A program made the translations under genes and the position numbers. This document shows positions 3,112 to 61,460 of a stretch of 64,000 bases of DNA, one piece after another. Below the pieces are notes generated by a model. It worked only from the letters and a program-made list of their open reading frames with translations, made no database searches and was not told the origin of the DNA. The stretch is from Ilex aquifolium (taxonomy: Eukaryota; Streptophyta; Magnoliopsida; Aquifoliales; Aquifoliaceae): contig OX637410.1 of NCBI GenBank assembly GCA_951799425.1, forward strand, positions 7,502,001 through 7,566,000, given 5' to 3'. Within the stretch, counting starts at the first letter, position 1. Each line of letters starts with the position of its first letter.

Positions 3112-3411
3112 CGTTCGAACGTTGGTGACGTTCGAACGTTGGTAGAAGGATTTTAAACAAACCGTTCGAACGTGGTATGGTGTTCGAACGTGGTGAGCTC
3201 TCAGTACTTTTGAGTTTCTGTCAGAGGCCAAAGTACTGTAAGTTCTCTTCGTTCGAACGTTCTATTGGCGTTCGAACGTTAATCTCGTTCGAACGGTCTA
3301 TTGGCGTTCGAACGGACTGAGCTCCCAGTACTTTTAAGTTCCAGCAGAAGCTTCATCAGAGGCTGAGTACTGTAAGCAGTCAACGTTCGAACGTTACCTG
3401 GCGTTCGAACG
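3112..3411. repeat. CGTTCGAACG palindrome cassette, five pairs
   Basis: Ten copies of CGTTCGAACG (one is TGTTCGAACG) at 3112, 3129, 3163, 3181, 3250, 3269, 3286, 3305, 3384 and 3402. They form five pairs with 7 to 9 bases between members. Linkers contain repeated GAGCTCCCAGTACTTTT and TTCCAG words. The cassette lies directly upstream (element strand) of the TATA box at 3098-3091. Confidence 0.9.
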
Positions 3412-3680
3412 TTGAACCAAAATTAAAGTTTTTCTCTACTACTCTATATACAATCAAAGAAAACAAAACACACAAATTTAAATCAAGAAAAACTAAGGCG
3501 TCTCAGGATGAACCCCTACCCACGCTTCAGGTTGGTATTTTGGGGCATTCCTTACTCGGCCCATATTTTCATTTCAGTCAAAAGAATTTATACAAAAAGA
3601 TTTTTACACTTTTTACAACAAATTCGGACCTTTGACATTCACTCCCCCAACAAAAGTACAAATTTTCTACAGAAAATTAT
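3412..3680 (-). other. Spacer between Cys-rich ORF and palindrome cassette
   Basis: AT-rich and without a credible ORF. It separates the end of the small Cys-rich ORF from the palindrome cassette. Nothing else is recognised. Confidence 0.5.
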
Positions 3681-4091
3681 CTAATCCGAGTCTCCCTCTG
3701 TGTCTGTGTAAAATGGACAACCAGTAACTCTCCCAACTTCCTCTCTCACAAATCGGTTAAGCACAGTACCGGAATAGCATGGCGTATCAGAGTAATCCTT
3801 ACTCAGCCCATTCACTATCCAGTCTAATCGATCAAGTGCGCGACCGGAAATTGGTTCAGAACACTGGTTGTACCTTTTTTCGTGAAAGAATCTGCCACAC
3901 TGTTTACAGGCACCAAGCCTTTTTGCACGATGACGTTTGGCAAAGCTGCTTCTGCCACAGAGGGGTTTCGCTTGTTTTTCTTTGATTTCAGCCTTCCTTA
4001 CTAATCTTGCTTTTCTCATGATCATAATATGTACATCAGATGGAAAAGTACATAGAACTCCTAGGCTAAACCAAAAAAGATTTACATCCAT
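3681..4091 (-). CDS. Conserved small Cys-rich ORF of Athila-like elements
   Basis: Intact 136-codon ORF, starting MDVNLFWFSLGVL and ending TDTEGDSD. The centre is very basic (Lys/Arg-rich around residues 27-60) and carries CKQCGRFFHEKRYNQC, a C-x2-C-x11-C arrangement with a nearby His that could bind a metal. The tail is acidic. A clearly homologous frame of the same length lies at 60771-61175 in element G, with the same start context, the same RYNQC/QYNQC motif followed by AEP/SEPIS and RALDRL, and the same position between the post-pol hairpin and the palindrome-plus-TATA block. Conservation between a young and a decayed copy suggests a real element protein rather than chance. I do not recognise the family. 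A nucleic-acid-binding role is only a guess from the basic and Cys-rich composition. Confidence 0.6.
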   Translation of the reverse strand: MDVNLFWFSLGVLCTFPSDVHIMIMRKARLVRKAEIKEKQAKPLCGRSSFAKRHRAKRLGACKQCGRFFHEKRYNQCSEPISGRALDRLDWIVNGLSKDYSDTPCYSGTVLNRFVREEVGRVTGCPFYTDTEGDSD

Positions 4092-4304
4092 GATTGCTAA
4101 ATTTTAAGACTCACTATCTGGTTCTTTAACATCTGCCAGTCACAAAGACGATTGAAGCTGATTCATAAGCATAATCATCAATTTATACAATCAATGTTCA
4201 AACATGATTAACAGCGACAATAAAAATTTAAAAATTTACGAAAATTATGAACGAACAAGAACTGATGAACTGATGAACTGATCATACCCCCCAACCTAAA
4301 CTGA
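4092..4304 (-). other. AT-rich leader between post-pol hairpin and Cys-rich ORF
   Basis: No credible coding frame. It ends at the purine run GGTTGGGGGGTATG (minus strand, near 4286-4297), which follows the hairpin and resembles an internal polypurine tract. Confidence 0.4.
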
Positions 4305-4320
4305 ACATTGTCCCCAATGT
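4305..4320 (-). other. Conserved hairpin and purine tract downstream of gag/pol
   Basis: The minus strand reads ACATTG-GGGA-CAATGT, a short stem with a four-base loop, followed about 10 bases later by GGTTGGGGGG. Element G has the equivalent AAACATTG-CGGA-CAATGTTT at 60594-60613 followed by GGGAGGAAGGG. The combination marks the end of the gag-pol unit in both elements. Confidence 0.55.
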
Positions 4321-4465
4321 TTCGAATTTACCGGTTCATGGAGTGTGGAGACGAGGTTGAATGGTAGAGATCTGTTCACCGTTGAAACCTACAAACAAAA
4401 ACACAAAAATTACTCATCTGTGCGCAAATCTGGGTTTCGGGTGTTTCCTGTTGTTGAAGGGTTCC

Positions 4466-5902
4466 CTACATGGAATTGGCCTTGTGGTTGCTTTGGTTGA
4501 GCAGGAAACTTTCCCTTTCGTGTGTGACCATGGATTGAGTCAACTTTTGGATGTGGCTTTTAAGATCCTCAAAAGATTGAGTGGTCTGGGTTTTGAAATC
4601 AGTGAAAGCCTGTGTGGAATTATTGTTATAATTCATTTGGCTTTGCATGAACTGATTCAGTGTGTCCTCAAGGTTCCTCTTTTATGGTGGTTGGTATGGT
4701 TGATATGCAGGAGGTCCTTGAGGTGGTGGGTATGGTCCTTGTTGTTGGTTCATGGGTATTGGTTGTGTGTTCTTCCAATTGAAGTTAGGGTGGTTTCGCC
4801 ACCCTAGATTGTATGTTTCAGAATATGGGTTGGAGTAGGGCTTGTTGAAGTTGGAAACTGTATGTGTTTGTTCCAACAAGACTTCTTTGAATGCTGGGAT
4901 GGTGGGACACTCCCCAGTAGGGTGTCCTGTTAGCGCACAAATTCCACACATTTGCTCGGTGGAAGGGCTAACATCAACTTGATGGACTTTCTTCATCTCT
5001 AAAGCTTCAAGCTTTCGAGATAGTGTGGACATTTTTGCTCTCAAGTCATCATCCTCTCTCAAGACATATTTTCTTCCTTGGGAATTAGATGGTCTGGCTT
5101 CTACAGTGGTAGGGGAGGTTGAGTCCCACATCTGAGAACTGTCAGATATGGTGTCGAAAAAATTGAATGCCTCCTCCGGACTTTTTCCCATGAATTCTCC
5201 TTGGGCCATCATTTCGACAAACTGACGTAGTCTAGAGGGTAAAGAGTCATAGAAAAATCCTACCAAAGTCCAATTTTCAAAAGCATGATGTGGGCAGGAT
5301 TGGAGAAGATCTTTGAATCTCTCCCAACTTTGATAAAAAGTTTCTCCTTCTTTGACCGCAAAATTCATGATTTACCTTTTTAGTGCATTTGTGCGGTGTA
5401 AAGGAAAAAAATTTCTAAAAAATTCATTTTGTAATGCTTGCCAATTGGGTATTGAAAAAGCCTTTAAAGAATTTAACCATTGTTTGGCTCTATCCCTCAA
5501 GGAAAAAGAAAACAGTTTCATTTTGGCCAATTCAGAATTGTCTTGGAATGTTCCACACACTTCCTCAAAATCTTTTATATGCAGATATGGATTTTCTGCA
5601 TCCAATCCATGAAACACGGGTAATAACTGCACTGTCCCCGACTTTACAGTAAAGAGGGGAGCATTTTCAGGAAAAATAAAACAAGAGGGGACACTATTTC
5701 TTGTGGGATTTAAGTAATCCCGTAAAGTTCGGATGTTAGGGACCTCCTCCTCTCTCATAGGGACTTCTCCATTTCTTTCATTATTTGCCATACTACCCTC
5801 ACAAGAGTCTGCTACTGATCTAGGTGAATTAGGTTTAGGCTGATTCACGGACTCACACGATTCTGCCGGTAAATTTTGGAAGTGAGGAGTGCCCTCAGTC
5901 AT
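4466..5902 (-). pseudogene. gag of A1 (capsid plus CCHC knuckle), two in-frame stops
   Basis: One frame of about 479 codons from ATG at 5902 to a stop at 4466, interrupted by TAA at 5374-5372 (probable CAA-to-TAA) and TAA at about 4684-4682. It encodes the Athila-type Gag: a Ser/Asn/Glu-rich N-terminus, a retrotransposon gag core (motifs LLPVFHGLDAENPYLHI, KQWLNSL, FFPLHRT, FYQSWERFKDLL) at roughly residues 90-250, a coiled segment (LSRKLEALEMKK), then one CCHC knuckle CGICALTGHPTGEC. After that comes a Pro/Gln/Tyr-rich tail. Gag would form the cytoplasmic particle. The homologous part of G (55772-56475) shares the same order. No protease follows, so the gag is detached from pol. Without the two stops it would be complete. 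Confidence 0.8.
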
Positions 5903-7326: not shown

Positions 7327-7432
7327 GGCAAGAGGAGGAGACAAGGGGGGGGGGGGGGGGGGGTGAAGGAATAGTGTTTGCCGCCCAAGTCCAAGTGAAC
7401 AGTCAACAACTCTGCTGCCTGTCTGTGAATAA

Positions 7433-7777
7433 CGTTCGAACGTGAGTTGGCGTTCGAACGTTCTTTCTGTTTTTGCACTAAGGGCGTTCGAACGTTTACT
7501 GCCGTTCGAACGTTTCTTCTGTTTTTGCACTGAGGGCGTTCGAACGCCAGATTTGTTTTGACCCTATCACTCGAGTAGTCTGGTGGTCTTTTGTGAGGTT
7601 CAGTTCCAACTCTTTGCAGTAGTCTGGTCTTCCATCAACTCAAGTGTACGTTCGAACGTGAGTTGGCGTTCAAACGTGACACTCAAGTGCTTCAAAGCTC
7701 CAGTCTTCTTTCCTAACTGCAACACGCCTTCTCTTCAGCAGTTGAGTCTGCTACAGTGCAATGTGGACGTTCGAACG
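7433..7777. repeat. CGTTCGAACG palindrome cassette in A1 LTR
   Basis: Perfect copies at 7433, 7451, 7485, 7503, 7537, 7649 and 7768, with a degenerate copy (CGTTCAAACG) at 7667. Pairs are separated by 8 bases. The last site is single here but paired in A2 (52483 and 52501), so A1 has lost one 18-base unit. Confidence 0.9.
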
Positions 7778-7961
7778 TTCTGGCTGTGCTCCAAGCTTTT
7801 CCAATTTTGGCCCTAATGTGCTGGTGTTGCATCCAAGTGTGGTACTTTTTGTTCTTGGGTCCTTGTTCAATTTAGGGCCTGAAATGACATCACTTAAACT
7901 CCATTAAAGTACAATTAGTCTTAAAATGTCATAATAACATGTCAATTTTAAGTACTAATCA

Positions 7962-9956: not shown

Positions 9957-11257
9957 GGGGTAAATATCTAGAAAATCAGATTTTTCTTTCCCTTGTGTTC
10001 TTGTTTGGCCGGCCAAGAGAGAGAGGAGAAAAAAGAGAGAAAATAGAATTTTCTTCAAGCTTTCTCCGTCGATTCCCGGAGTTCCGTCGCTCGGATTCCG
10101 TCGAGCCAAGAGCTAAAGTCGATCCTCTCGACGAGGGCTACACAACCACCCCAAGAACGAGGGATTTCACCGAAGATCCAAAGAAGGAGATTTGGGGGGA
10201 AATCTAGTCTTGGGCTAGGAAAGAGTTCTTGAAGCTTCCTTCGGGTGATTACGCTTCAAGAGGTAGGGTTCTCCCTACTTTGGTGTAATCTTTCCTTAGA
10301 TGTTAGTAGTCTAATGTTTTGATATGCTATGCCTAGGATAGACCTTCATATATAGGTTTATGGTCATAGAAATGGAAAAGTGAGCATAGAGATGGTTTAA
10401 ATCTAATTTCTAGCTTAACTTTGGTGTAAGAAGTTACATGTGAATTATTATGTAACTTGGGAAAATTTGAGGCATGATTATGAGATTTATAAATTGTGCC
10501 TAGAAGGTGTTTGATTAAATGCCTTGTAGCTAAGCCCATGATTGCATGATAAATTGGGTCGGGATGAGGAAGAAGAGGCATGACGACCTCTCGGGTGAAA
10601 GACCCGGTGATTTGGGGGGTGCACTCCATTGGTATAAGAGCCCATAAAGTGTACGGGTGTGGAAGACCATTGGTATGAGTCCATGAAAAAGTCCGATCCC
10701 AAGAAAGACCCTAGCTTTGAAAATGTCATTTGATGAAACATAAATGATGAAATGAAACATTTTGGCATTGCATCGTGTTGTAGGAGTCGGTGAGGACTCG
10801 GGTTGAAATGCATGAGGGAGTGACATCTCATTTCATGACATGGTAGTATTGCATTCCAACTTAGGATGCATGTCCTTGTGAGAAATGATTGTTTGCAAAT
10901 GAATGTTTCATGAGCATGAGCATCTAGGGGGAGAGTAGCCCTTGTAGGGTTTACTTTACTGGGCGTTGGCTCACCCTATACGGGAAACATTTCAGGTGTG
11001 GGGTTTGCACCGGCGGATGGCTCACTTGGAGAGCATCAAGCATGAAGGGGGGCGGCTTGTGGCCTTAGTTCGAGTTTTTGTAAAACTTTTGTATAAATTC
11101 CATTTTGATGTGTAAATTATGGAATTAATTGTAATGGAACTTGTATAAGTTGTGTATTATATGGAAATCCTTGTTATACATGTATTTGATGAATTGGGAA
11201 GGGTTTTGAATGGCTTGGAAATGAAAAATAGGTAAAAAAGGGCAATTATGGGCCAGG

Positions 11258-11313
11258 CGTACCGGTACGCGTACCGGTACGGTTAGGTCCAGAAGGCGTA
11301 GCGTACCGGTACG
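11258..11313. repeat. CGTACCGGTACG palindrome cassette in C 5' LTR
   Basis: Three perfect 12-base palindromes at 11258, 11270 and 11302; the first two abut. The linker contains GGTCCAGAAGGCGTAG. The equivalent cassette in the 3' LTR has six sites. Confidence 0.92.
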
Positions 11314-11606
11314 CTCTCCAAAATTCAGAATTTTCTTTATTTTATTATTCTTTTGCCAAGTCTTTGGGCTATGTTTTCCTCCCTTCTAATGTTACAAATG
11401 GATAATAAGGGGATACCAATAGTGGTATATTGGATCTCGGATAGGTCAACCAACCGAAATAAATTTGAACTTGTATTTTTTTTTTATCCCGGTAAAGGGA
11501 ATGTGATGCCGCGGTATCGGGTTAAGCGACATCCACGGGTATTTCCACGGGTTGACGGGTTGTCAACGGTTAATACAGGACCCCCGGAAAATGGGGCGTC
11601 ACAGCT

Positions 11607-16580: not shown

Positions 16581-16659
16581 TCATTTACTATTACATGACT
16601 GTAGCATGTGCATGAGACTGCATGTATGCGTGTGTGAATTTCGGGGACGAAATTCTTTT

Positions 16660-18724: not shown

Positions 18725-18836
18725 CGTACCGGTACGCGTACCGGTACGGTTAGGTCCAGAAGGCGTAGCGTACCGGTACGCGTACCGGTACGGTAAGGTC
18801 CAGAAGGCGTAGCGTACCGGTACGCGTACCGATACG
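18725..18836. repeat. Expanded CGTACCGGTACG cassette in C 3' LTR
   Basis: Abutting pairs at 18725/18737, 18769/18781 and 18813/18825 (the last has one change, CGTACCGATACG). The repeating unit is 44 bases, including the linker GGTTAGGTCCAGAAGGCGTAG. The 5' LTR of the same element has only one pair plus one site. Confidence 0.92.
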
Positions 18837-20622: not shown

Positions 20623-20678
20623 CGTACCGGTACGCGTACCGGTACGGTTGAGCTACTGGAGTTCGGCGTACCGGTACG
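20623..20678. repeat. CGTACCGGTACG cassette in D left LTR
   Basis: Sites at 20623, 20635 (abutting) and 20667. The linker holds CTACTGGA, the reverse of TCCAGTAG, which also occurs in the E and B cassettes. Confidence 0.92.
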
Positions 20679-24154: not shown

Positions 24155-26383
24155 TGTAACGCCCCAAATACCACCCTGGACGACATTACATACTAAAACC
24201 ATATACATCATGAGAGCACTAATATCATCCATAAATAAATTACACTTCATTCATCATCCATAAAATATTTACATCATTATCCAAAAGAATATGTCATCTT
24301 TGGCCTTTACATTTCAAAAATTAATCCAAGTTGCACAGCGGAATAAACAAAAGGAACTAGACTACACAATGTTCTAAAAGAATGTCCTAGTCTAGTACAA
24401 AAGGAAAGAGGTCGCTCTAAGCGTCCACCTCGGGATCCACACTCCCGTCTAGCGGAGTCTCCCAAGTAGCGGGCTCCTCGACCCCTACGTCCTCCTCTTG
24501 TAGGAAATCTGAAAAATGTTAGCAGCAGGGGATGAGCACGAAGCTCTGTAGCAAAATCTTCCCAAACTCAAACAAGGTTTAGAAAAGCATATAAAACGGT
24601 TGGTCTCATTTTCACAAATAGCATATATAACATTTGAAGTAAAACCAGGACATTTGAATAGATCTCAAGTTTAAGGAACAATAGTAATTGAATGAATAAG
24701 TGAAACCAGTATACAGTTAACAAACTATATCCAAATATAACCCATTCTACCATAAACCATTTCCAACAAGTTCTCTCGGAATCCCATACTTCCGGAAACT
24801 CTTGTCGAAACCATTTCCGGTACAATGCACGATAACCCACAATGTATATCCGACACTACCCACGTTACTATTCCGTCATCATTAGTGCTAGGAAATGTTC
24901 GTACCCACACGGCGTACAAAGACGTCTACCCACACTATGTGGTAGGAAAAGTTCATACCCGCGTGGCATACAAAGCCGTCTACCCACTACATGACACCCG
25001 GTCAATAGTAAACCATGTTAGCATCGTACAACTACGCAAGAGATACTATACCGACAAACACCTCACCTTCCCAACAATTACACAATTCCCCCAATTTACA
25101 CGCCATATCCAAGAAAAATCCCCAATTCTCATAAGTTGTGGTACAAGAGTAATACAATAAAATGTACAAGAGATCATCATAAATAGCATTTTGTTGTTCA
25201 CTATGAAACACTAACGTTTTGAAATCGAGAACATAGGAGGAATCAAAAGAAAAACCCCTTTCTCTTGAAACCTAGGGTTTTAAGATGAGAAAAAGGATTT
25301 AATGGTTATTCCACCATATATTTGTTTAAAACTTGATAATCATTGCAAGGATGTCAAGAATCAAGTAAATACTAGCAAGTATATACGGTTTTGAAACAAA
25401 AGAGTACATATAATTTAACCCTAACATCAATGTAAGAGAATAGGAAGAAATCCCCTACCTCAACCAAGTATCTCTAGCAACCCAAGCTTTAATGACTCCC
25501 CTTTTCCCTTTTTTTTCTTGTTCCCTTGCTACTTTCTCTTTCGGTTCTAAGAGGTTTGAGTGAAAGTGAAGTGAAATTATAGTAGAGGGAATGGGTGGAG
25601 AAGTGGGTTCTTGAAAAACTAGGGTTTGATTTTGTTCAAGGTGTAAATCTCTCTTGATTTTATGTTTTTCTCTTCCTCTCTTCCTCTCTAATGGTTTCTA
25701 GGGTTTCAATTGGTGTAATGAGGCTTAGAGAGGTGTAAGGATGTATTTATAGTCAAAGAAATGGAGAAAGAACCGAAGCCGGGTCGGGCTAGGCTTTGCC
25801 GGGCGTACCGGTACGCGTACCGGTACGGTTGAGCTACTGGAGTTCGGCGTACCGGTACGCGTACCGGTACGGTTCGACTGCCAGATTTTTGCTCCAAATT
25901 CCAGTGCAGTTTTGACCCATTTAGAGGTCGAATTGGAAAATTTTCATGAGATACACTTTTGTAGCCCTAGATGTCTACTATCTACTGTAAAAATTTCAGA
26001 CCAATTGGACTTAAGGATAAAAAGTTATGGCCGAAATACTATGCAGTGTCCAAAATCTTAAATTCCCAAATTTTCTCTACAATGTGTTTTAACTCCAAAA
26101 TACTTCCTAACTTCGAATACACCTCATATTACCTCTCCCAAGGTTTCTCGACCTTCCGGACTCAATGGAAACCTTATTTTGACCTAAAAACCTTTAGAAA
26201 CTTGTCTATTCATCCTTTCCAAGTTTAAACATCTTCGACACGTAACTTCCCAATCAAATTGTCTCCATAGCATTTATTCCTACGGTTTATTCTTATGTCA
26301 CTACATATATCTACATCTTTACTAATATTATTTACTATATATATATCTCTATAAATATATAAAAGAAAATTCAGGGTGTTACA
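24155..26383 (-). repeat. 5' LTR of D (right copy)
   Basis: A 2229-base LTR nearly identical to 18974-21190. Its cassette has four palindromes against three in the left copy, which explains the 12-base length difference. TATA at 25751-25744 (minus). Confidence 0.9.
25804..25871. repeat. CGTACCGGTACG cassette in D right LTR
   Basis: Two abutting pairs, 25804/25816 and 25848/25860, separated by a 20-base linker containing CTACTGGA. It is one unit longer than in the sister LTR. Confidence 0.92.
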
Positions 26384-27646: not shown

Positions 27647-29344
27647 TGCTTGACTTTTTCTATCGTTCCTAATCTCCAAAACATGAACCCTCAATGTGTA
27701 TATGGCTTATTTGTGTGGGTGAGTGTCACTCTCGCTCGGGTTCAATGCAATAGATGGGAAAACGGATGTGTGGAATTAAATGTGTGTGTGCGTGTAAACA
27801 AAAGTACTCCCTAAGCGCAGGGAGACTTTCGATTGTTGTGTTTTACTTGGAAATCGTATTGCAAGGTCGTCTCCTTAGGGAAGGATGTGAATCATGTTGA
27901 AGTTGATTGTGGTGAACAAAAGAAAAGTGTAAAAATCTTTGATGTTTGAGTTTGGTGATTTGTGTTTGTGATAGAAAATGAAATGGAACAAGTGTTGGCT
28001 AATCCGAAGAGATCATTCCAATGAGAATGTCAAATCAACTCGAGACCATCCTCCAATGGTGTCTAGATGTTCGATTGATTCGTGGGAAGCGAGGGACTAA
28101 TATGGAGGTGAGGATCCAAGCATACCCCGTGACAAGTCTACGGGATATCAAAGACTCACAACCACGTCCGCACTCAACCCAGTCAAACCGAATCAACGTA
28201 CACTACGAGGAGGAATGAAAATAATTGAAATAGCATACCCAAGAGGAGTTCTCCCTTGGATTAGCCAACTATAAGCTTAGCTAATCATATTTAAAGCAAT
28301 AACATAAATGTAATTGAGAGACATTGTAAACAAATGAAGATTGGAATTTAGTTTAATGCAAGAAAACTTAAACTAAGACTAGAAACATTCAATACCCATT
28401 TTAAAACTTGAAATAAAGAAAACCACCTGCAACAATGGTGAAAACCAAAATGGAGAACTAAACTTGCAATGTGCTCGTAATAAATGACATTAAAGACATT
28501 AAATGAAACTTACACAAGTCTTATAGAGGATTACAAGTGAAATGGATGAAGAGAATGTAAAAATCTAAGCTTTCTCTCTCTAACTATGCCTTCTACCTAG
28601 AACTTCTCCCTCTATAATGCAATACAGTTGTATAATACATAATGAATGAATACATTTTTGTCCATGGAGAGCTCTTTTGGTGTGTGACAGGCCTTACATC
28701 AAAAAGGGGTTTATTGGATGCATTGGGCAGGCTAGGACAGGTCTAGCTTGCATCTCCCAGCTCTTCCTTTTCTCTCTCCTCCTCATAAATGCCCAAGCCT
28801 TCGAAGTCAAAGCATGGGTGATGGGAGGCCCGTAGATGTGTAAGGGATGTCAGGGGACAAGTGGGAGAAGTGTAGGTGGGACCCCCAAATGGCAGAGCTT
28901 GAGTTGCAAGCTGTCTGGGCAATCTGGGCAAAACCTTCCGGAAGGTCGACAGAAACCTTCCGGAAGGTTTGTGCAGGGACAGTTAAAATGGAAAACCAGT
29001 AACCAAAACCTTCCGGAAGGTTCATTCCAGTAGACAAAACTTTTCGGAAGGTTTTGGCAGTGAAAAGGCAGATCAAGGCAAAACCTTCCAGAAAGTTTTC
29101 ACCCAAACTACATTTTTCTTGGTTTCTTCACCCTCCAAGCCTTCCTTTAAGCTATCCCCTCATCTTCATTGACTTCTAAAAATTCAATGGGTTCTTAACT
29201 TGAATCATTTATATCCATTTACCAACATTTACACAAAACTCCAATAAAGAGAAGATAAAGCGCATTTCTCCCCAAAGTCACAACAAAAGCAAGTATAAAA
29301 GGGCATATTAACATAAAAAAATATGCAATATTTTGTGCTAATCA
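27647..29344 (-). repeat. 5' LTR of B
   Basis: About 1698 bases, TGCTTGACTT to GTGCTAATCA on the plus strand. The part 28268-29344 is homologous to B2 (54688-55771). Read on the minus strand it is homologous to LTR I (43696 on), including TGATTAGCAC at the start, a GGGGTCCCACC block and TTTGACTTCGAAGGCTTGGGC. It carries the CCTTCCGGAAGG cassette. Confidence 0.8.
28934..29098. repeat. CCTTCCGGAAGG palindrome cassette in B LTR
   Basis: Perfect 12-base palindromes at 28934, 28956 and 29009, with decayed copies at about 29039 and 29084. The linker includes TCCAGTAG at 29026-29033. It lies about 246-410 bases from the LTR's 5' end. Confidence 0.9.
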
Positions 29345-30134: not shown

Positions 30135-30512
30135 TTTAAACCCCCACATTCTTATCTTTATATAGCAACGTAATTATTTTTGAAATGTTAATATATGTAA
30201 TGATGTATGCATGAACTAGGTAGAGTATAAAAGTAGAAATAAAAATTTTAGTGGAGGTAATAGGTTATGTTGTAGAAAGTTGGAAGTATTTCGGAGTGAA
30301 ATCGCATTTTAGAGATAGTTTGGGTAAGATGGATTTTGGACACTGTCTAGTATTTGGATCATAAATTTTTATCCTAATTTCCGTTTGATCTGAAATTTTG
30401 ACAGTAGATAGTAGACTTCTAGGGCTACAAAAGTCTATTTCACAAAAATTTTCCAAATCAATCTCGAAATAGGATAAAACTTCTCTGGAAGTTTCAGCAA
30501 AAACAGGAATTC

Positions 30513-30642: not shown

Positions 30643-30695
30643 TGAGTTACGAATCTGGGTTTCAGAAATCGCGCACATGAGACCATTTCTCACCC

Positions 30696-35556: not shown

Positions 35557-35713
35557 CTACCGGTAGCCGACCGGTAGTTGATTTCCAGTAGTAAACAGCT
35601 ACCGGTAGCCGACCGGTAGTTGAGTTCCAGTAGGAAACAGCTAGCATTAGCCAACCGGTAGTTGATCTCCAGAATGTTTCGACTACCGGTAGCCGATAAA
35701 CAGCTACCAGTAG
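35557..35713. repeat. CTACCGGTAG cassette in E 5' LTR
   Basis: Units of CTACCGGTAGCCGACCGGTAG separated by linkers TTGATTTCCAGTAGTAAACAG. Several copies have decayed relative to the 3' LTR (for example CTAGCATTAG and CTACCAGTAG). TCCAGTAG occurs at 35584 and 35626. Confidence 0.9.
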
Positions 35714-35990
35714 CCATTCCAAAAATCTGAAATTTTTAAATGTTTTGCCAAATCTTTGGGCTTTGAATTTCCTTCCTTTAAATGATCAAAGTGGACCCTA
35801 ATGGGGTACAAACAACGGTGTATGGGACTTTAATTGAATCAAATGAATGTTAAACCGAATTTTCATTATGGGTTATAATCCCGGCTTAAAGATATTCTTG
35901 ATGTGGTGTCGGGTTGAGCGATATCCACGGATGTTTTCCGTAGGTTGATGGGTTATCAACGGGACCCCCGGATTTTGGGGTGTCACCGCT

Positions 35991-41018: not shown

Positions 41019-43631
41019 TGTGAAACCCGGGAAAATTTGAATTTTTTTTTTAAGGGCGAAATAGTCATTTGCCACTACTGTGCGTATTTAAAATACATAT
41101 GTTCTAGACCTCGGATGAGGAAACGGAGTGCGTCGTTGGATTCGCAACGCGAATTCTAGTGACCACCAGAAATTTCGTTGAGTTCCGAGAGAGTCGGATT
41201 TTGCACGTAGATCGAGACGACTGCGTGGCGATTGACCTTTTAAAGGTCCCCAAAAACGAGAAATATTAAAATTCCTTATAATTGGATTAATGTGCCAATA
41301 AAATTTATTTGGACTTAATCCGGGACTTAATGAGTCGTTTCGGGACGAAAAACGGACCCGAAGGTAATAAACGAGTGGTGCGATGTAGACCACACATTTA
41401 AAACTATAAATAGGGCTAAAATATCTGAAAAATCAGATTTTCTAAGCCACTTGAGCCTTGTTCAGCCGTTCAAAGAGAGAGAGAAAGAGTGGAGAGAGAA
41501 AAGGGTTTTTCTTAAGCCCTTCTCCGGCGATTTCTCCGACAACCGTCGCTCGGATTTCGTCGAGCTAGAAGGGAGAAGTGATCTACGCGACAAGGGCTAC
41601 GCGTGGGCACTAAAAACAAGGAATTTCACCGAAGATCCAAAGAGGCGATCTTGAGAGATTCAAAGTTTTGGAGTGGTTTTGGTGTTTTTAGGGGTTTTCT
41701 ACACTCCTAAGAGGTAGGGGTTGTTCCTACGTTGGATTATTCTACCTTAGGTGTAGCTAGTTTAAGGGTATCTATATATATGCATGTGTATATATGTATA
41801 TATATATGTTTGTGGTTATGAAAATGGAAAGGTGAGCATGAAGTGAGCTTAGTCTTGTTGCTAGCTAAACTTTGATATGTGTAAGTTATATGTGATGCAT
41901 TATATAACTTGGTGATATTGAAGACATGTTTTGTGTGTTGGAAGTTGTTGTTTTGCTTAAAATGAGATAATATGCTTAATGCCTACAAGGTGTTTGATAA
42001 TATGCCTTGGTTGGTTGTTTAGATGATTTGTTTGGGGTCATTGGAATAACATGTTGAAATGTGTTAATGATATATTGACATATGCTCATTGATATGTTGT
42101 TTATGACGGTTTATGGAATTTATATGCTTATGATTTAAATTCCATGGAATGTGAAGATATGTGTTGATTACTCATGTTACATATTGTGCATGACCATTGG
42201 CCTTACATTCATGAGCTATATGCATGGGTGTGGAAAATATTGCTCATATGGTAGTCATTGCATTTGAGCATGGTCATGACATCACATTCATTGGGCTTAT
42301 GTCATGGGTGTGAGTGTGAGTGTGTATGGTTAGTCAAACACCACTCTTGGTTATTGACAAAGGAACTCGGAAGAAAGGGATTGAAGACCCTTTTGGGCCG
42401 TATGGTTGCATGAAAGAAAATTGGGTTGGGGTAGCAAGAAGAGGCATGACGACCTCTCGGGTGCAAGGCCCGGTGATTGGGATACGCACTCCCTTGGCTC
42501 GGCCCATAAAGTGTGTGGGTGTATCCGGAACCCTCGGTGTAAGTCCGTGACTTCCGTGTGGGTTGGAGACCCTTGGTGTAAGCCCATGAACATCCACCCC
42601 CTTACAAGACCCTAAAATGGAGGATGTCATTTGATGTGAACATAAATGGCGGAAGGGAAACACATTGGCTTTCCATTGTGTGGTAGGAGTCGGTGAGGAC
42701 TCGGAATGAGTTGCATTAGTGAGTTTCCATCTCATTTCATGGCATGGCATTGTTGCATTCCATCATAGAATGCATAAGTATGAAAAAAGGCTTGGTTATA
42801 TGGTTATGTGATGATTTCATGAGCATGTGCATCTAGGGGGAGAGTGGCCTTTGTAGGATTTTCTCTACTGGGCGTTGTGCTCACCCTTTACGGGAACAAT
42901 TTCAGGTATTGGGTTTGCACCGGGGGATGGCTCCCATGGAGAGCACCAAGGGTGAAGGGGGCCTATGTGTGGCCTTACCTCAAGATTTTGTAAACCTTTT
43001 GTTTTAAAATGGTTTATGACATGTAAATATTGTAAAACATTATATTTTGAATTATGAATGTATGAAGTTGTATGTAATATGACTTGGATGGACTATGTAT
43101 AATGTGGGAGTTTTCATTATACATGTTTGGTATGAGTTTGGAAGAGTTTAAAAAGGGTTGGAAATGAAAAACTAAGGAAGTGGGCAAAACCTGCCTTCAG
43201 CTACCGGTAGCCGACCGGTAGTTGATTTCCAGTAGTAAACAGCTACCGGTAGCCGACCGGTAGTTGAGTTCCAGTAGTAAACAGCTACCGGTAGCCGACC
43301 GGTAGTTGATCTCCAGAATGTTTCGGCTACCGGTAGCCGATAAACAGCTACCGGTAGCCATTCCAAAAATCTGAAATTTTTAAATTTTTTGCCAAATCTT
43401 TGGGCTTTGAATTTCCTTCCTTTAAATGATCAAAGTGGACTCTAATGGGGTACAAACCACGGTGTATGGGACTTTAATTGAATCAAATGAATGTTAAACC
43501 GAATTTTCATTATGGGTTATAATCCCGGCTTAAAGATATTCTTGATGTGGTGTCGGGTTGAGCGATATCCACGGATGTTTTCCGCAGGTTGATGGGTTAT
43601 CAATGGGACCCCCGGATTTTGGGGTGTCACA
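41019..43631 (+). repeat. 3' LTR of E
   Basis: About 2613 bases, very close to the 5' LTR. It has a slightly longer TATATG repeat near 41775-41810 and a less decayed palindrome cassette. Confidence 0.93.
43201..43357. repeat. CTACCGGTAG cassette in E 3' LTR
   Basis: Five CTACCGGTAG sites (43201, 43242, 43286, 43327, 43348), three of them followed 11 bases later by GACCGGTAG. Linkers carry TCCAGTAG. All full sites are intact here. Confidence 0.92.
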
Positions 43632-43695: not shown

Positions 43696-45480
43696 TGATT
43701 CGCACCAAACTTTGTATATTTTGTTGTGCAAATCATCTCGGTTTAATTGATTTTTGGAGATTATATTGATGTGAGTTGCGTTAATTGAGCACTTATTGGT
43801 AATTTGTGATTTTTGCAGTTAAACAATGCAAATGTCGACTTTTTCAAGCACTCTAAAACAAAGCTTTGATGAATGGAGATAAGGGCTAGCCTTGATTTTG
43901 GATTAAAAGAAGAAGGAAGCAAGAAGGAATCAAAATCAGACAGCTACCGCATGGCTACCGGTAGCCGATTGCTTCTGGAGTTACAGCTACCGCATGACTA
44001 TCGGTAGCCGATTGCTTCTGGAGTTACAGCTACCGCATGGCTACCGGTAGCCGATTGCTTCTAGAGTTACAGCTACCGCATGACTACCCGTAGCCGATTG
44101 CTTCTGGAGTTACAGCTACCGCATGACTACCGGTAGCCGATTGCTTCTGGAGTTACAGCTACCGCATGACTACCGGTATCCGATTGCCTCTGGAGTTGCT
44201 GCTACCGCCGAGCTACCGGTAGTCGAGGTTGTTTCATCCCAATTTCTGCTGGATTGTTCCTGTTGCTTCAAGGGCCCCACCATCTAGTCTCCCTCACTCC
44301 TCTGACTCGTCCAACATACAGAACATCCCTCCATGTCTTTCCTCTTGGACTTTGAAGCCATGGCATTAATTGAAGAAAGAGAAAATGGGGGCTGCTGGGT
44401 GTGCAGACCTGCTCTGCACACCTCTGTCATACCTTGTCTGCTACACTCCTAGGGAGACGGTGATCAGATGGGAGACTCCCTCCTCTCCAGGACGTGTGGT
44501 GGGGGGAAAAGGGAGGCATTATGTATTACATTGGAGAGTTTTTAGAGAGAGAAGCTATGGGCGAGGAAGACAATGAATAGTAGTTTTAGAGAGAGAAAGT
44601 TGTGATTTTTGCATTTCTTTTGCTGCATTGTCTTGTAATCAATGGTAGGAACCTTTATATCTTGAATGAATGCCATTAATGTCATTTTCCCTTATGTCAT
44701 TGCTAGTTTAATGCTCCCATTTATGTTCTACCATTAATGCTTCAAAAGTTATTCATGTTCATAGCTATAAAATAGATTTTCATGCCATTCACTTCTAGTC
44801 TATGATTTCTTGTGCTTAGGTACTTCAAAACTCCATATCCTTACAATGCATTATCTTTACATTGTCATTTCTAGTTTTAGTATGAGTAGCTAAACACTTG
44901 TTGTTGGCAAGACCAAGGGAATCCCCATTTGGGTATACCATTTCAACTCTTTCTACACCCTCCCTTTAGAGTCCCATGGTTCGGTTTGACCGGATTGAAG
45001 GTGGATGAATTGGTGAATCTTTGATAATCCGTAGGCCTAGTCACGGTTAATGCTTAAGCATTCACCAACATCATCCTCGGCTTTCCGTGAATCAACCGTT
45101 CATTCTTGCTCAATCGGAGGAGTGATTTGAGTTGAGATAGTATACCCATTGGAGGGACCTCTTGGAATTGCCAACACTTGTTTTCTCGTTCTAATTTCAC
45201 CAAAACACACTTCACCAAACAATTTCCAACAACAAGAATTTTACACTTTCTTTACCCAAATCACTTTCAAATTGGTTTACTTCCTTCCCCGTGGAAACGA
45301 CCTTGGAATACCACCAAGTAAAAGACGACCCATGAAAGTCTCCTTGCGATTGGGGAGCATTTTTGTGCATTCAACTATCACATTCCCACTGACTTATATC
45401 CTTCCCTATTGCCCTTTCTTTTCACACTATCCCAAGGGAGCATGACCTCCCTTCCCGGCTGAATAAACATAACACATACA
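43696..45480 (+). repeat. Athila-like LTR I, right end uncertain
   Basis: Starts TGATTCGCACC. By position and sequence it is the plus-strand counterpart of LTR B (minus strand): TGATTCGCAC/TGATTAGCAC start, palindrome cassette about 246 bases in, then GGGCCCCACC, TTGGACTTTGAAGCCATGGCATT and, near the end, GAAACGACCTTGGAATACC and GTCTCCTTGCG blocks. The right limit is put near 45480 (ACACATACA) but I see no primer-binding site. The small ORFs inside it are not believed. Confidence 0.6.
43941..44229. repeat. 43-bp tandem array of CTACCGGTAG palindromes
   Basis: Seven copies of a 43-base unit beginning at 43941, 43984, 44027, 44070, 44113, 44156 and 44199. Each unit has CTACCGCATG, then CTACCGGTAG eleven bases later, then CCGATTGCTTCTGGAGTTA. 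Several units have one change in the palindrome. The last unit is divergent. Confidence 0.93.
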
Positions 45481-46578: not shown

Positions 46579-46729
46579 TGATTAGTCACATTTTATGCCC
46601 TTTTGGATGCATGTTGTTATTTTTCTATTAAATAGCATAATTTATGGAATGTGAACATGCATAGAGGCATGCGTGGGAGTTGAGTATAAAGTGGATAAGA
46701 AGACCATAAGAATAGAAAGAGATCAATCC

Positions 46730-46989
46730 ATTGTTTGAGGGATTGATTTGGATTGTTTGTGAAGATCGAAAGGAAAAAAAAAAGAGGGATCAATCCGTGC
46801 GTGTTAGAAATCGATCCAAATATTGTTCACAAGGAAGAGAGGTGCTAGAGAATTGAAGAGGATCGAACCATGGCAAAATCGATCCCTATAAGTATGGGAT
46901 CGATCAGATTGATGAAGAAATCAACAAAACCTTTAAAGGATCGATCCTTTGTGTGTAGGGATTGATCCTTATAGCATTTATTTGGATGA
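46730..46989. repeat. GGATCGATCC-type palindrome cassette in L
   Basis: Best site AAAGGATCGATCCTTT (46935-46950), a perfect 16-base palindrome. Decayed sites include GGGATCAATCC, AATCGATCC (two), GGGATCGATC and GGGATTGATCC. Differences from the consensus are mostly C-to-T or G-to-A, as expected of methylated CpG in an old copy. It lies about 80-340 bases upstream of a TATA run. Confidence 0.75.
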
Positions 46990-47067
46990 TTAAAGCTATA
47001 GGAATTGATCCGGGGAAGATTTCAACCTAGTATTCGAATCCTTTATGTTGACTTTTACCATTACCCT

Positions 47068-48597: not shown

Positions 48598-48633
48598 ACC
48601 ATCCGGACGCCACCACCACCATCCGGATGGTGG
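48598..48633. repeat. CCATCCGGATGG palindrome pair in J
   Basis: CCACCATCCGGATGGTGG at 48616-48633 is a perfect 18-base palindrome; CCATCCGGACG lies 20 bases upstream (centre to centre). The place corresponds to the CGTTCGAACG cassette of the A LTR. Confidence 0.85.
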
Positions 48634-49650: not shown

Positions 49651-50739
49651 TGTGACGTCCCTAAAACCGGGGGTCCTTTGTCAACCCGTTGATCACCCAT
49701 CAACTCGCAAAAGTACCCGTGAATGTCACATAACCGACACCATGTCATGACATCCCCTTCATCGAGATCATAAACAACACAGGGTTTGGGCAGAGTCTCC
49801 ATTGTACCGGGCACTACCAAATGCATAGCCTGTATACATTTCAATCACTTGACAATTCCAAGGTCCAATATACATCAATTTGTCCTTAATATTACTCAAT
49901 TATAGCATTTGTCCAAACCCTCAGCAAAGTTAATTTAAATTTTTCAAATTTTTTGGAGGAGATACCGGTAGTACGTGTACGTGCTACCTGCAACTGAGCC
50001 CTCTGCCAACAAGCTACCAATGCAAATTTTTGGAGGAGTTACCGGTAGCTCGTGTACGTGCTACCGATAGCTGAGTCCTCTAGAATTGTGCTACCAGTAG
50101 CTCAAGACTTGCTACCGGTAGATGAGCCCAGTTTTCCTCCAATTCTATCCTTTTTCAATTTCAACTCACCCAATCTCATATAACATTCACCCAAACTCAT
50201 ATAACATCAAATTTTACACAAAATATAGTTCATATCAGTTCATTTTACAATCCTTTATATAACGTTATATATCCAAAACCAATTAAACGGTTGTTTTATA
50301 AAAATGTAATCTAAAGCCATAACTCGGCTTTCTTCATCAACGAAGGCCCAAGTGAGAGCCATCCACCGGTGCTTGTCCCGCACCTAAAATGTTGTCCCCA
50401 TAAAGGGTGAGACATGCTCAATAGGGTATCTCCTAAATAAGCTACTCCCCAACCTAGATGCATATGAAATACTAACATGCAATTCAACAATCAAACAAGC
50501 ATTCATCCAAGAACATACAACTTCAAGAATGAATGTCATAATGGCATGCCATGTTATGAGGTGAGACTCACACATGCAATGCAACCAAAGTCTTCACTGG
50601 CTCCCATAACGCATGCAATACCATGCATATGAATCCGAGCATTCCAATCCCCCACCATGGATGTTACACATCCAATGACCATTTATAAACCCCGGGACTT
50701 TCTTGGGGTGGGTATTTATGGACTTTCACCAATGGGCAC
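49651..50739 (-). repeat. Truncated Tekay-like LTR M
   Basis: Starts TGTGACGTCCC and matches, on the minus strand, the 3' portion of the C/E/H-type LTR (CATCAACTCGC, GGGTGAGACATG, GAGCCATCCACCGG blocks). The A2 LTR cuts it at 50740. It contains CTACCGGTAG-type sites at the E-like position. Confidence 0.7.
49963..50121. repeat. CTACCGGTAG-type cassette in M
   Basis: TACCGGTA at 49963, TTACCGGTAG near 50040 and CTACCGGTAG at 50112, with decayed copies (CTACCGATAG, CTACCAGTAG) and a shared ACGTGTACGTGCTACC linker. It lies 312-470 bases from the LTR's 3' end, as in C and E. Confidence 0.75.
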
Positions 50740-52694
50740 TGATGCTTGATCCGAAATGTGTACACCCAAGTGCAGGCGGTCAAGCTATAGTAATAATCCG
50801 GTTTGAGTCCGGAGTCGAATCCACAGGGAACTTTTGTTGATATTTCTGAGGTGAGCAGTGGTAGAGACCTATTGATTGTAACCTTTGAGATTTGCTGTGA
50901 GATATGAGTTTTTCTGGACAGAATATAAGATTCTTTCCAGGAAGATTTTCTTAACAAAATAGGTGTTAATAAAAAAAAGTCACTCTTTAGTGCAAGGATC
51001 TGGACATGTAGCTAGTTATCCGATTTGTCATAATTGTGCTTGATAACTCAATTAACTCCCGTGTCAACAGCAAGTTAATTGGAAGATAAAGATAGATTGT
51101 GAGAATTAAGAACATGATTCCGATGTCTTTCTAGAAGTTTACAAGAATTGCCTGTGCCGAGACTTAACCCGTCTACAAACAAGCAAGTGTTTCTGCAAGA
51201 CATCCAATCATGATATTAATATTCCATTCTTTAAATGAAGTACAATAAGGGGGAAGATTGAGGGGTAGTCATGAGGATCTAGCCGGGGTACTTGCCTTGA
51301 ACTGATGAATCTTTCTATGCAAGAGTCATCCGTGTCATAGAAAGAACCCACAATTATACAAAGTACCCTAGCTTTGCTAGATGCAATCAATCATCCAATA
51401 ACAAGAAGAAATAAGCGTTAAGCATAGAAACATTGCACAAATATGATTCTCGGATAACTTATACATGCCATTCTCCTCTTACTAAAGAGTGAATGAGAAA
51501 CTACTCACTCTTCATGGCTTGGGTAAAGCTAGAAAAGTGAGTGATGCTCATCCCTCCAAGTAGAGAACTTATAAGATAAAGTAACAACAAATGCGTAGCC
51601 AATCTTTAACAAAGAATGGGTGAATCACATTCCACCCTTCACGGCTTTGGTAAAGCTCTAGAAAAGTGGAAGAGTTTCACTCTTCTAAGAAAGAAAGAAG
51701 CGCAAGCAATGGAAGTGAAATGTATGAACAATAAAAGTAGAAGAAAGCTAGTCACATTTGGAGGGTGGCTTCCTCAACCAAGAATTGGAGGGTTGCTTCC
51801 TCAACTAAAAGGTGAGCTATCTCTCTTCTATGCATGAAAAATGAAAGCATAAACATAAGCATAAACATAAAACTACTGTTATAACAAGCAAGAGATGTTG
51901 GACTAAAGCCAAACTAATCTCTAAAATAAAGACTTCATACAAGGGAAATGAGCTAAATCTACAATGAGAGTGGGAGTCTAAGCCTCCATCAACTTTCCTA
52001 CTTCCTACTTGGCTCCCCTAACTCTCCAACAAGGGGAGTATTTATAGGCAAGAGGAGGAGACAAGGGGGGGGGGGGGGTGAAGGAATAGTGTTTGCCGCC
52101 CAAGTCCAAGTGAACAGTCAACAACACTGCTGCCAGTGTGTGAATAACGTTCGAACGTGAGTTGGCGTTCGAACGTTCTTTCTGTTTTTGCACTAACGGC
52201 GTTCGAACGTTTACTACCGTTCGAACGTTTCTTCTATTTTTGCACTGAGGGCGTTCGAACGCCAGATTTGCTTTGACCCTATCACTCGAGTAGTCTGGTG
52301 GTCTTCTGTGAGGTTCAGTTCCAACTCTTTGCAGTGGTCTGGTCTTCCATCAACTCAAGTGTACGTTCGAACGTGAGTTGGCATTCGAACGTGACACTCA
52401 AGTGCTTCAGAGCTCCAGACTTCTTTCCTAACTGCAACACGCCTTTTCTTCATCAGTTGAGTCTGCTACAGTGCAATGTGGACGTTCGAACGTGATTTGG
52501 CGTTCGAACGTTCTGGCTGTGCTCCAAGCTTTTCCAATTTTGGCCCTAATGTGCTGGTGTTGCATCCAAGTGTGGTACTTGTTGTTCTTGGGTCCTTGTT
52601 CAATTTAGGGCCTGAAATGACATCACTTAAACTCCATTAAAGTACAATTAGTCTTAAAATGTCATAATAACATGTCAATTTTAAGTACTAATCA
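50740..52694 (-). repeat. 3' LTR of A2
   Basis: A 1955-base LTR nearly identical to that of A1. TATA at 52046-52039 (minus). G run of 14 bases (52065-52078) against 19 in A1. It inserted into LTR M on its left. Confidence 0.9.
52148..52510. repeat. CGTTCGAACG cassette in A2 LTR
   Basis: The same layout as A1 with an extra terminal pair, 52483 and 52501, eight bases apart, where A1 has one site. Confidence 0.9.
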
Positions 52695-54687: not shown

Positions 54688-55771
54688 AACTTAAAGCTTA
54701 GCTACTCATATTTAATGCAAGAACATAAATGAAATGAAGAGACATTGCAAAGAAATGAAGAGTGGAACTTAAATTAATGCAAGAAAACATAAACTACAGA
54801 AAAGTGCATTTAATACCCATTTGAAGAACTTGAAATGAAAACTTAAATTCAACAATGGTAGAATCTAAGATACTCAACTAAACTTGCAATGTACTTGAAG
54901 TAAATGACATTAAAGACAATAAATGAAGCTTACAAGAGTCTTGAGAAAATTACAAGTGAAATGGATGGAAGAAAATATAAAAATCTAAGCTTTCTCTATC
55001 TAACTATGTCTTCTACCTAGAGCTTCTCTCTCTACCATGCAATACAATCTGTATAATCTGTGAATGAATCATCCAAAAACGTCGATGGAGCTCCCTCTAG
55101 GTGTGAGATAGGCTTCCCATCCATAGGAGGTTGATTGGATGGCACTGGGCAGGCTAGGACAGGCCTAGCCTGCATCTCCCTGCATTGCCTCTTTTCTCTC
55201 CTCCTCATTAATGCCATTGTATCCCAAGTCCAAGCAAGGGGTTTTAAGGGATGTCAGGGGACAAGGGGGAGAAATGTAGGTGGGACCCCCAAATGGCAGA
55301 GCTTGAGTTATAGGCTGTTTGGGCACTCTGGGCAAAACCTTCCGGAGGGTCGATGCAAACCTTCCGGAATGTTTGTGCAGGGATAGTTGGATCAGCAAAC
55401 CAGTAGGCAAAACCTTCCAGAAGGTTCATTCCAGTAGACAAAACCTTTCGAAAGGTTTTGGCGGTGAATAGGCAGACCAAGTGTAAACCTTCCAGAAGGT
55501 TTTTAGCCAAACCTTCCGGAAGGTTTTCATCCAAACAACATTTTATTTGGTTTCTTCACCCTCTAATCCTTCCTTTAAGCTATCCCTTCATCTTCATTGA
55601 ATTCAACCACTTCAATGGGGGCCTAACTCAAACCATTTACATCATTTTACCTGCATTTACACATAACTCCATTAAAGATAAGATTAAATGCATTTCTCCC
55701 CTAATTCACAACAAAAGCAAGTATAAAAGGGCATAACAACATAAAATATATGCAATGTTTTGTGCTAATCA
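54688..55771 (-). repeat. Truncated B-family LTR B2
   Basis: Homologous to B LTR 28268-29344 and ending in the same GTGCTAATCA (55771). About 620 bases corresponding to B 27647-28267 are absent, and A2 sequence is joined instead. Small ORFs in it are shadows. Confidence 0.85.
55338..55523. repeat. CCTTCCGGAAGG cassette in B2
   Basis: One perfect site (55512-55523) and about six decayed ones (CCTTCCGGAGGG, CCTTCCGGAATG, CCTTCCAGAAGG, CCTTTCGAAAGG). TCCAGTAG at 55430-55437 is shared with B. Confidence 0.85.
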
Positions 55772-60470: not shown

Positions 60471-60593
60471 GAGCCAGTCTATCTTGTTATTTGATTATAA
60501 ATAGTAGTACTAATTGTTTGTTGTTTATTTTACAGATTAGGTTTTAAATTATCAGTTATATTACCTTCCACACTTCGTTAGCATTTCTATATT

Positions 60594-60613
60594 AAACATT
60601 GCGGACAATGTTT
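60594..60613 (+). other. Post-pol hairpin of G
   Basis: AAACATTG-CGGA-CAATGTTT, an eight-base stem with a four-base loop, followed by GGGAGGAAGGG. Equivalent to the A1 hairpin at 4305-4320. Confidence 0.6.
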
Positions 60614-60770
60614 AATTTAAATTGGGAGGAAGGGAATTATTAAAATTCGTGTAATTTGTTTTGTATATTTTGTTTTTGTAAAATTGTTCGTCTTTCTGAC
60701 TGGCATACGTTAAAGAACCAGATAGTGAGTCAATTTTGAGTCATTTTTAAAATTTTTTAATAATTGTACA

Positions 60771-61175
60771 ATGGACGAGAAACTATTTTGGTTAAGTTTA
60801 ATTTTACTGCGCCATTTTCCAAAAGACATACATTCGTTGATCATGGCAAAAGCTAGATTTGTTAGAAATTTAGAAATACTTGAAAGTCAAGCAAAACCTT
60901 TGTGCGGAAAAAGTTCATTGGCTAAATGCCGATGAGCAAATCGTCTCGGTGGTTGTGTAAGATGTGATCGTTTAATGCATTTGAGACAATATAATCAATG
61001 TGCGGAACCAATTTCAGTACGAGCGTTAGATCGTCTCCAGTGGATTAGGTATGGGCAGAGTAAGGAATATCCGGAGACGCCATCATATTCTACTCATATG
61101 TTGTCAAGATATGTGGGAAGTGAAATTAACCGTGTCACTGGTGTTGTTGATTTGCAAGATTCTGATTCTAATTAG
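60771..61175 (+). pseudogene. Cys-rich post-pol ORF of G, one in-frame stop
   Basis: A frame of 135 codons starting MDEKLFWLSL with a TGA at 60933-60935, probably from CGA. It aligns with the A1 ORF (4091-3681) along its whole length: LFW.SL start, AKPLCG.SS.AK basic stretch, C..C......QYNQC..PIS.RALDRL, then SKEYP.TPSYS and an acidic end. No insertion or deletion of more than a few codons separates the two. Function unknown. Confidence 0.6.
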
Positions 61176-61426
61176 TTCAAATGATGAATAATTTTGAGAA
61201 TGGTGCATAAAATGTAAATAGCTATAGATTAATTAAGAAAATGAGTAAATAATAAAAAATAAATAATAATTAATAAAACCAATTTTTTGAAAAAAAAGAG
61301 TGGATAGCAAGTTATGTAGAATGTTTAAAGTTGTAATTAATCTTGTAACTACAGGATTTCAAACTAAAGAAGGGAGAACGTCAGCAGTCAGCAGCCTGCA
61401 GTGCAATGCAAATTCCAGTGTACCAG
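61176..61426 (+). other. A/T-rich spacer after the Cys-rich ORF
   Basis: No credible ORF. It corresponds in position to A1 3680-3412. Confidence 0.4.
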
Positions 61427-61460
61427 CACCGTCCGGACGGTGGTACTGGCATCCGGACGG
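61427..61460. repeat. CCGTCCGGACGG palindromes of G
   Basis: CACCGTCCGGACGGTG (61427-61442) is a perfect 16-base palindrome; ATCCGGACGG at 61451-61460 is a second, partial site 20 bases away centre to centre. TTCCAGTG lies just upstream. A1 has the CGTTCGAACG cassette at this place. Confidence 0.85.

Follow-up and report, generated by a model that had tools for sequence, protein, structure and literature searches.

Why should long terminal repeats (LTRs) that are otherwise unlike one another carry clusters of short, perfect palindromes with CG at the dyad axis? The question is raised by a 64,000-nt stretch of Ilex aquifolium DNA (the window, to which all in-window counts and comparisons given here refer), which is a nest of plant LTR retrotransposons. 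Its elements were mapped by self-comparison, reading-frame and Pfam scans, primer-binding sites (PBS), and direct reading, with 11 LTR families recognised (A, X, I, J, K/L, C, E, M, D, F, and N). The names Athila-like, Tekay/Del-like, and chromovirus-like are provisional labels, assigned from PBS, gag and protease similarity and a weak chromodomain match. Our preferred reading of the sequence, held with moderate confidence, is that the palindrome arrays are composite upstream enhancers of the retrotransposon promoters, bound by dimeric factors. The dyad sites would be occupied by proteins that bind DNA sequence-specifically as dimers, probably members of a host family that differ in specificity, and in several families of elements these sites would lie on one helix face together with a partner reading TCCAG(T/A)A. 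The arrays would then drive the LTR promoter and, in the Athila-like element A, also the internal promoter of a downstream frame.

CG-centred palindromes and their arrays

All seven palindromes named in the initial annotation are present, each with CG at the dyad, although they may represent six types, with CCATCCGGATGG of J lying two CpG transitions from CCGTCCGGACGG of G; J and G were for this reason rejected as clearly separate types. Such palindromes are in excess over shuffled sequence within the window. Against 60 dinucleotide shuffles in 1-kb blocks, counting perfect palindromes and excluding pure TA runs, 70 CG-centred palindromes of at least 10 bp were observed compared with 7.5 ± 2.8 expected (shuffle maximum 18), with 46 compared with 1.9 at 12 bp or more (maximum 6), and 23 compared with 0.4 at 14 bp or more (maximum 3). 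AT-centred (26 observed, 26.6 expected) and TA-centred palindromes (20 and 22.2) show no excess, and GC-centred palindromes are likewise over-represented (24 and 10.6), seven of the 24 being junctions of CGTACCGGTACG doublets. Cassette motifs account for 65 of the 70 CG-centred palindromes, with only 13 distinct CG-centred 10-mer cores, such that the excess lies in copies rather than kinds. As copy numbers are multiplied by tandem duplication of 42–44 bp units in C, D, E, and I, the stronger evidence is the recurrence of CG dyads across otherwise unlike LTRs, with these found in ten of the 11 families (A, X, I, J, K/L, C, E, M, D, and F) and in two internal promoters. The arrays and single palindromes are as follows, including the TATA box that follows the internal array of A.

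3112..3411, minus strand: A internal array, nine perfect CGTTCGAACG, centre gaps 17–19, 34, 69, and 79 bp
3093..3098, minus strand: TATA box GGCTATAAAAGCC of the A internal array, 13 bp beyond it; presumed internal promoter
2876-2885: extra A internal CGTTCGAACG site, in the presumed 5′ untranslated region (UTR)
7432..7778, minus strand: A LTR array, seven perfect CGTTCGAACG plus CGTTTGAACG; TATAAAT at ~7326
52147..52510, minus strand: A2 LTR array, eight perfect sites and one decayed
11229..11350, plus strand: C 5′ LTR cassette, CGTACCGGTACG doublet; palindromes at 11258-11315
18725..18831, plus strand: C 3′ LTR array, 44-bp unit in more copies than in the sister 5′ LTR
25765..25885, minus strand: D 5′ LTR cassette, CGTACCGGTACG doublets; array at 25804-25871; flanks homologous to F
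20623..20678, minus strand: D 3′ LTR array; the sister LTR has one more site
30504..30682, plus strand: F cassette, four CGTTCGAACG and one CpG-decayed; flanks homologous to D
35528..35742, plus strand: E 5′ LTR cassette, GCTACCGGTAGC in 42-bp units with TCCAG(T/A)A; array at 35556-35692
43200..43358, plus strand: E 3′ LTR array, five perfect sites
43935..44235, plus strand: I LTR array, CTACCGGTAG in 43-bp units; TCCAGAA in reverse orientation
28920..29110, minus strand: X LTR array (B of the initial annotation), CCTTCCGGAAGG
55325..55540, minus strand: B2 array in a truncated relative of the X LTR, CCTTCCGGAAGG and decayed copies
49955..50130, minus strand: M LTR array, CTACCGGTAG mostly decayed, one of five perfect
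48616..48633, minus strand: J palindrome, CCACCATCCGGATGGTGG in a solo LTR
46690..47000, plus strand: L array, GGATCGATCC together with decayed copies; probably in the U3 of K
61427..61442, plus strand: G palindrome, CACCGTCCGGACGGTG; presumed internal promoter of K

Perfect or near-perfect copies number 3–11 in 15 of the 17 arrays examined and two in each of J and G, and the CpG observed/expected ratio is 1.16 over the 17 cassettes pooled, compared with 0.61 elsewhere. Scans of viral_contigs for paired CGTTCGAACG or CTACCGGTAG returned 6 and 18 stretches, none of the 24 with more than four motif copies, and these are probably chance matches.

Promoter position, spacing, and a second motif

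The location of the arrays follows lineage, as the initial annotation had proposed, lying ~180–590 bp from the LTR 5′ end in A, X (its B), D, I, and J, and ~290–460 bp from the LTR 3′ end in C, E, and M. Six arrays (A LTR, A internal, D, F, L, and G) have a TATA box 13–119 bp downstream. Measured on the element strand, TATAAAT follows the last perfect palindrome by 105 bp in the A LTR and 100 bp in the LTR of its copy A2, is found 51 bp downstream of the array in both LTRs of D, and occurs 70 bp past the last perfect site in F, with TATATAT 119 bp after position 46950 in L and 21 bp downstream of the palindrome in G. Within A, the internal array is followed by its TATA box, a presumed ~200-bp 5′ UTR, and then a reading frame matching PF20167. 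The internal promoter of K has CCGTCCGGACGG and its presumed LTR GGATCGATCC; the two promoters of A thus carry one and the same motif, whereas those of K apparently differ.

In the families with a CCGG core, the distances between dyad centres are near whole helical turns (14 distinct values, R 0.71, permutation p 0.0001), with a best period of 10.5–11 bp. Once the palindromes are masked, TCCAGT is enriched in the cassettes compared with the rest of the window in six of 12 families (uncorrected P 1.1e-7, 763 6-mers tested), as is TCCAGTA in four of 12 (uncorrected P 3.5e-7, 984 7-mers tested). Furthermore, TCCAG(T/A)A ends exactly 13 bases ahead of a dyad in five of the 12 families (C, D, E, X, and, in reverse orientation, I). 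Counting both strands, and including sister LTRs and tandem units, 13 of the 32 occurrences in the window end exactly 13 bases before a perfect dyad, compared with six hits, some from the same motif copies, at all other distances of 5–39 bases together. A scan of all 5-mers at all distances outside the palindromes placed the TCCAG(T/A)A/13-base pair at the top with five of 12 families, a number reached in none of 200 shuffles. A related T(A/C)CAGTA is present in A internal and F, beginning 14 bases past a dyad.

Several observations weigh against an enhancer role or against the generality of these rules. The arrays of C, E, M, I, J, and X have no canonical TATA box within 400 bp. The TCCAG(T/A)A offset was found post hoc, and its occurrences in C, D, E, and I are perhaps not independent, as an exchanged cassette could have brought the offset along; no exact copy of the motif was detected in the cassettes of the A LTR, A internal, M, J, G, or L, F has it at another offset, and an exact 6-mer spacing scan with palindromes counted showed no excess (observed maximum three families, null three to four). 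The CGTTCGAACG arrays depart from 10.5-bp phasing, with gaps of 17–19 and 34 bp (R 0.44, p 0.06), L is phased weakly (R 0.44 with every gap counted, 0.22 with distinct gaps only), and the division into CCGG-core and other families was drawn after the gaps were seen. Additionally, no 12-bp palindrome was found in the end of LTR N (61700-62200), even allowing one mismatched pair, and no CG-centred 10-bp palindrome in three Del-like LTR ends from outside the window (L026, L027, and L028, of 1230, 820, and 1451 bp; reverse transcriptase (RT) 74–75% identical; three of eight loci found were informative for the LTR end), and the module is therefore dispensable.

These outside sequences belong to a set of bacterial-assembly contigs (L025-L030) encoding plant-like Ty3/gypsy RT 70–79% identical to that of E, which are probably plant DNA contamination.

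The palindromes themselves decay in a biased manner. Of 45 mismatches across all 17 arrays, 30 are C-to-T or G-to-A (16 of them at CpG) and 15 are other changes, and in the four CGTTCGAACG arrays (A LTR, A2 LTR, A internal, and F) all four mismatches are CpG transitions. A and A2 carry different transitions at one homologous site, and the source copy was thus probably perfect. Between X and B2, transversions occupy 1 of 70 palindrome positions compared with 86 of 894 in the remaining LTR (Fisher p 0.016).

The arrays are also unstable in number, with perfect sites differing between the 5′ and 3′ sister LTRs of C (3 and 5), D (4 and 3), and E (3 and 5), pointing to expansion or contraction after insertion. 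Such instability would be expected if the arrays were short tandem repeats of no function, with a palindrome in them by chance, that turn over neutrally and spread between elements by recombination. We nevertheless consider this very improbable, as it leaves the scarcity of transversions in the palindromes, the promoter position, the phasing, and the fixed offset without a cause, and CG-centred dyads recur in unrelated LTRs. Placement, phasing, fixed offset, and constraint together favour protein binding to the DNA dyads within a promoter complex. The suggestion in the initial annotation of enhancer modules for dimeric factors is supported in part, as presumptive binding of this kind would fit the closeness of six arrays to a TATA box, the helical phasing where the core is CCGG, and the constant position of TCCAG(T/A)A. 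Its other suggestion, that the modules change as an escape from silencing, may also apply.

A role in RNA is unlikely in our estimation, but has points in its favour. The self-complementary sites would pair in the genomic RNA (3′ U3), giving hairpins for packaging or for small-RNA silencing, with the structure either selected or a target of the host. Nine of ten array pieces fold with z ≤ -4.7, with G at z -2.1 (two pieces came from A internal and one each from the A LTR, F, D, the 5′ LTR of E, the 3′ LTR of E, I, X, and G), and LTR palindromes of maize Sireviruses are described as small-RNA mapping hotspots (PMC5311732). Hairpins are, however, the automatic outcome of repeating a self-complementary site, and RNA pairing requires neither individually palindromic sites, a CG dyad, helical spacing, nor a fixed TCCAG(T/A)A offset. 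The internal array of A, moreover, lies ahead of its TATA box.

Cassette exchange and the elements involved

The motifs of the arrays differ between related elements (D/F, C/E, and X/I). The flanks of D and F align at 79% and 76% around differing cassettes of 121 bp (D) and 179 bp (F), and those of C and E at 75–78% and 68% around cassettes of 122 bp or 215 bp, with the slot only loosely bounded in X and I, whose LTR starts are weakly alike (32 bp, E 0.03) and whose 3′ halves align at 68%. By spacer alignment, the chromovirus-like LTR F and the internal promoter of the Athila-like A share one cassette. With palindromes masked, the two align with a score of 61, whereas none of 1500 real windows masked in the same way scored above 39, and with a slightly wider mask the score is 57 (z 13.7 against 100 shuffles); plain BLAST of masked cassettes against the window gives only E 0.001–0.002 for this pair, and no other cross-family match at E 0.05. 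The spacers of the A LTR resemble neither those of F (score 27) nor those of A internal (26) in this way. Other cross-family comparisons of masked spacers are weak (E/I reverse z 6.9 and 5.3, C3/E 5.3, others ≤4.5), with the other shared types (C/D and E/I) having weak or no spacer homology beyond motif and spacing grammar. Exchange of cassettes between families, as originally proposed, is thus supported by motif types that are independent of LTR relationship and by one clear spacer-level swap, that between A internal and F. A family would switch its dyad type by acquiring the entire cassette of an unrelated element, and the repeats themselves probably aid this transfer, by template switching or repair. 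An extension of the enhancer reading, in which the arrays form a portable promoter code across unrelated Ty3/gypsy lineages, the dyad selecting a host dimeric factor and being helically locked to TCCAG(T/A)A, and a cassette swap changing the niche, is a tentative proposal that we think rather doubtful.

The elements and accessory reading frames concerned are listed below.

LTR ~6020-7961, minus strand: element A, with an Asp-type PBS (5999-6013), gag-like frames, and then the internal cassette
50740-54688, minus strand: A2, a copy of A, with LTR ~50740-52694
LTR ~27643-29344, minus strand: element X, gag 26424-27500 resuming at 9561-9247, protease 8767-7958
9561-26541, arrays on the plus strand: element C, inserted in X and itself containing D
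18973-26389, arrays on the minus strand: element D, nested inside C
33386-43631, arrays on the plus strand: element E, flanks GTGAG
LTR starting ~43697, array on the plus strand: element I
gag at 55774, then protease, RT, integrase, NABP-like frame, and G, plus strand: element K
~49650-50730, array on the minus strand: element M
~47164-48877, array on the minus strand: J, a solo LTR sitting in the apparent K LTR, flanks GAGCG/GAGCA
~30240-32050, array on the plus strand: element F
from 61706, minus strand: element N, of the C/E/M group
2004..2873, minus strand: frame of A matching PF20167 (Transposase_32, ‘putative plant transposon protein’) in pieces, with an in-frame stop at 2346-2348
3684..4091, minus strand: intact NABP-like frame of A (carlavirus nucleic-acid-binding protein, PF05515, E 8e-9)
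60771-61172, plus strand: NABP-like relative in K, with one stop

The LTRs of A, X, I, and J begin with TGATT, as read from the sequence. In C, protease, RT, and RNase H precede integrase, which is the Ty3/gypsy order, and E has a first frame like that of C and a second 92% identical to the integrase frame of C. D has an integrase C-terminus and a weak chromodomain match below cut-off (E 5.8e-4), K has RT ahead of integrase, and reading-frame and Pfam scans of the window found no pol match for I, J, M, or F. Two regions were rejected as separate entities. B is the 5′ part of the X LTR and no independent element, and L, instead of being internal, probably represents U3 sequence of K that was later split by the solo LTR J. 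The LTR of K and its gag-to-G part would form one element, with several insertions between them. J itself contains a ~166-bp tandem duplication at 47716-48051 (97.6% identical). The PBS beside the presumed LTR end of K (49480-49500) differs from that of A mostly by C-to-T and G-to-A changes, the pattern expected of methylated-cytosine decay. Rfam at gathering scores and ARAGORN each gave no matches in the window.

The PF20167 frame, with its own TATA box, lies in an element with gag-like frames and no pol match in the window. The NABP-like frames of A and K share 74 of 134 residues, with a ratio of nonsynonymous to synonymous substitution (dN/dS) of ~0.17, dS being near saturation, and end ~260–270 bp upstream of the internal-promoter palindromes. 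Searches of viral_contigs found no relatives of this frame or of the RT piece of E.

By analogy with VANC of the VANDALs, which are not LTR retrotransposons, the arrays might instead be targets of an anti-silencing or activator protein encoded by the elements, the candidate being the NABP-like zinc-finger frame, which only A and K show. Its presence in both Athila-like A and K near the internal-promoter palindromes, and its dN/dS, would suit such a role, and VANC targets too form tandem repeats differing between related elements (PMC5735166). Against this, the Tekay-like C and E, which both keep their two LTRs, have arrays but no frame of 110 or more amino acids between the LTRs outside gag-pol, and an element-encoded factor could therefore not explain all arrays unless acting in trans. 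The single-sequence AlphaFold model of the candidate has a predicted local distance difference test (pLDDT) score of 42 and an uninformative, unusable fold, with only weak matches among solved structures, to ribosomal zinc-ribbon proteins and HU (E ≥ 0.022). We regard an element-encoded factor as an improbable explanation compared with binding by host dimeric factors.

Related systems and significance

The statement in the initial annotation that no system of this kind had been described is incorrect, since palindromic clusters upstream of the TATA box and of env have already been described in Sireviruses. Bousios et al. (2010; PMC2829016) report palindromic repeated-motif (RM) boxes in the upper half of Sirevirus LTRs, from 200–400 bp in, which lie upstream of the TATA box, border CpG islands, and have a second cluster upstream of the envelope gene. 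As here, a palindromic motif is present many-fold per LTR and varies between elements, and the cassettes of the window have CpG-island character. However, according to the same text the hosts of the RM boxes are Ty1/copia elements, as opposed to the Ty3/gypsy elements of the window (Athila-like, Tekay/Del-like, and another chromovirus-like group), and all but one of 13 RM boxes have a CGG-CCG core, often with intervening bases. The dyads reported here are gapless and CG-centred, with the CGG-CCG core absent from CGTTCGAACG and GGATCGATCC and an overlapping CCGG in the other motifs, and are accompanied by a cross-lineage, spacer-level cassette and a fixed TCCAG(T/A)A offset. The second cluster of A precedes the PF20167 frame, which may or may not be env-like.

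Palindromes in the LTR regulatory regions of maize Sireviruses are also highly variable and fast-evolving (Bousios et al. 2016, Genome Res, as summarised in a citing paper), although small-RNA hotspots are described there in one genus. In Del (Tekay), the lineage assigned to C, E, and M, Cruz et al. (2014; PMC4029996) describe a variable CpG-rich LTR segment, and suggest that these plastic CpG islands help to evade host control; the word palindrome is absent from their text, in which no CpG island was identified for the eudicot Del group. VANC targets in VANDALs likewise consist of a short motif in tandem repeats that differ between related elements (PMC5735166, PMC10398659), but the binding protein is known and element-encoded, and palindromes are not mentioned in PMC5735166. 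The U3 regulatory region of Tnt1 diverges while the remainder is conserved (PMC1838419), but this modular evolution is within one superfamily, with no cross-lineage cassette in the text consulted. Among titles in the literature, subscription papers not being covered, none was found to describe a Ty3/gypsy or Athila equivalent, no title among the matches listed for the exact motifs was that of a retrotransposon-LTR paper, and mentions of ‘palindrom’ in PMC11302176, PMC11963269, and PMC10794571 are unrelated. What appears to be new here is the fixed TCCAG(T/A)A offset and the near-whole-turn spacing of the CCGG-core dyads.

The grammar of these arrays (dyad type, 31–32 bp spacing, and TCCAG(T/A)A 13 bases from the dyad) provides a search pattern for any plant genome, and could also serve as bait for host factors activating these elements. 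If the arrays are working binding sites, plant retrotransposon lineages would trade promoter parts, and activity and tissue niche could move between families independently of their proteins.

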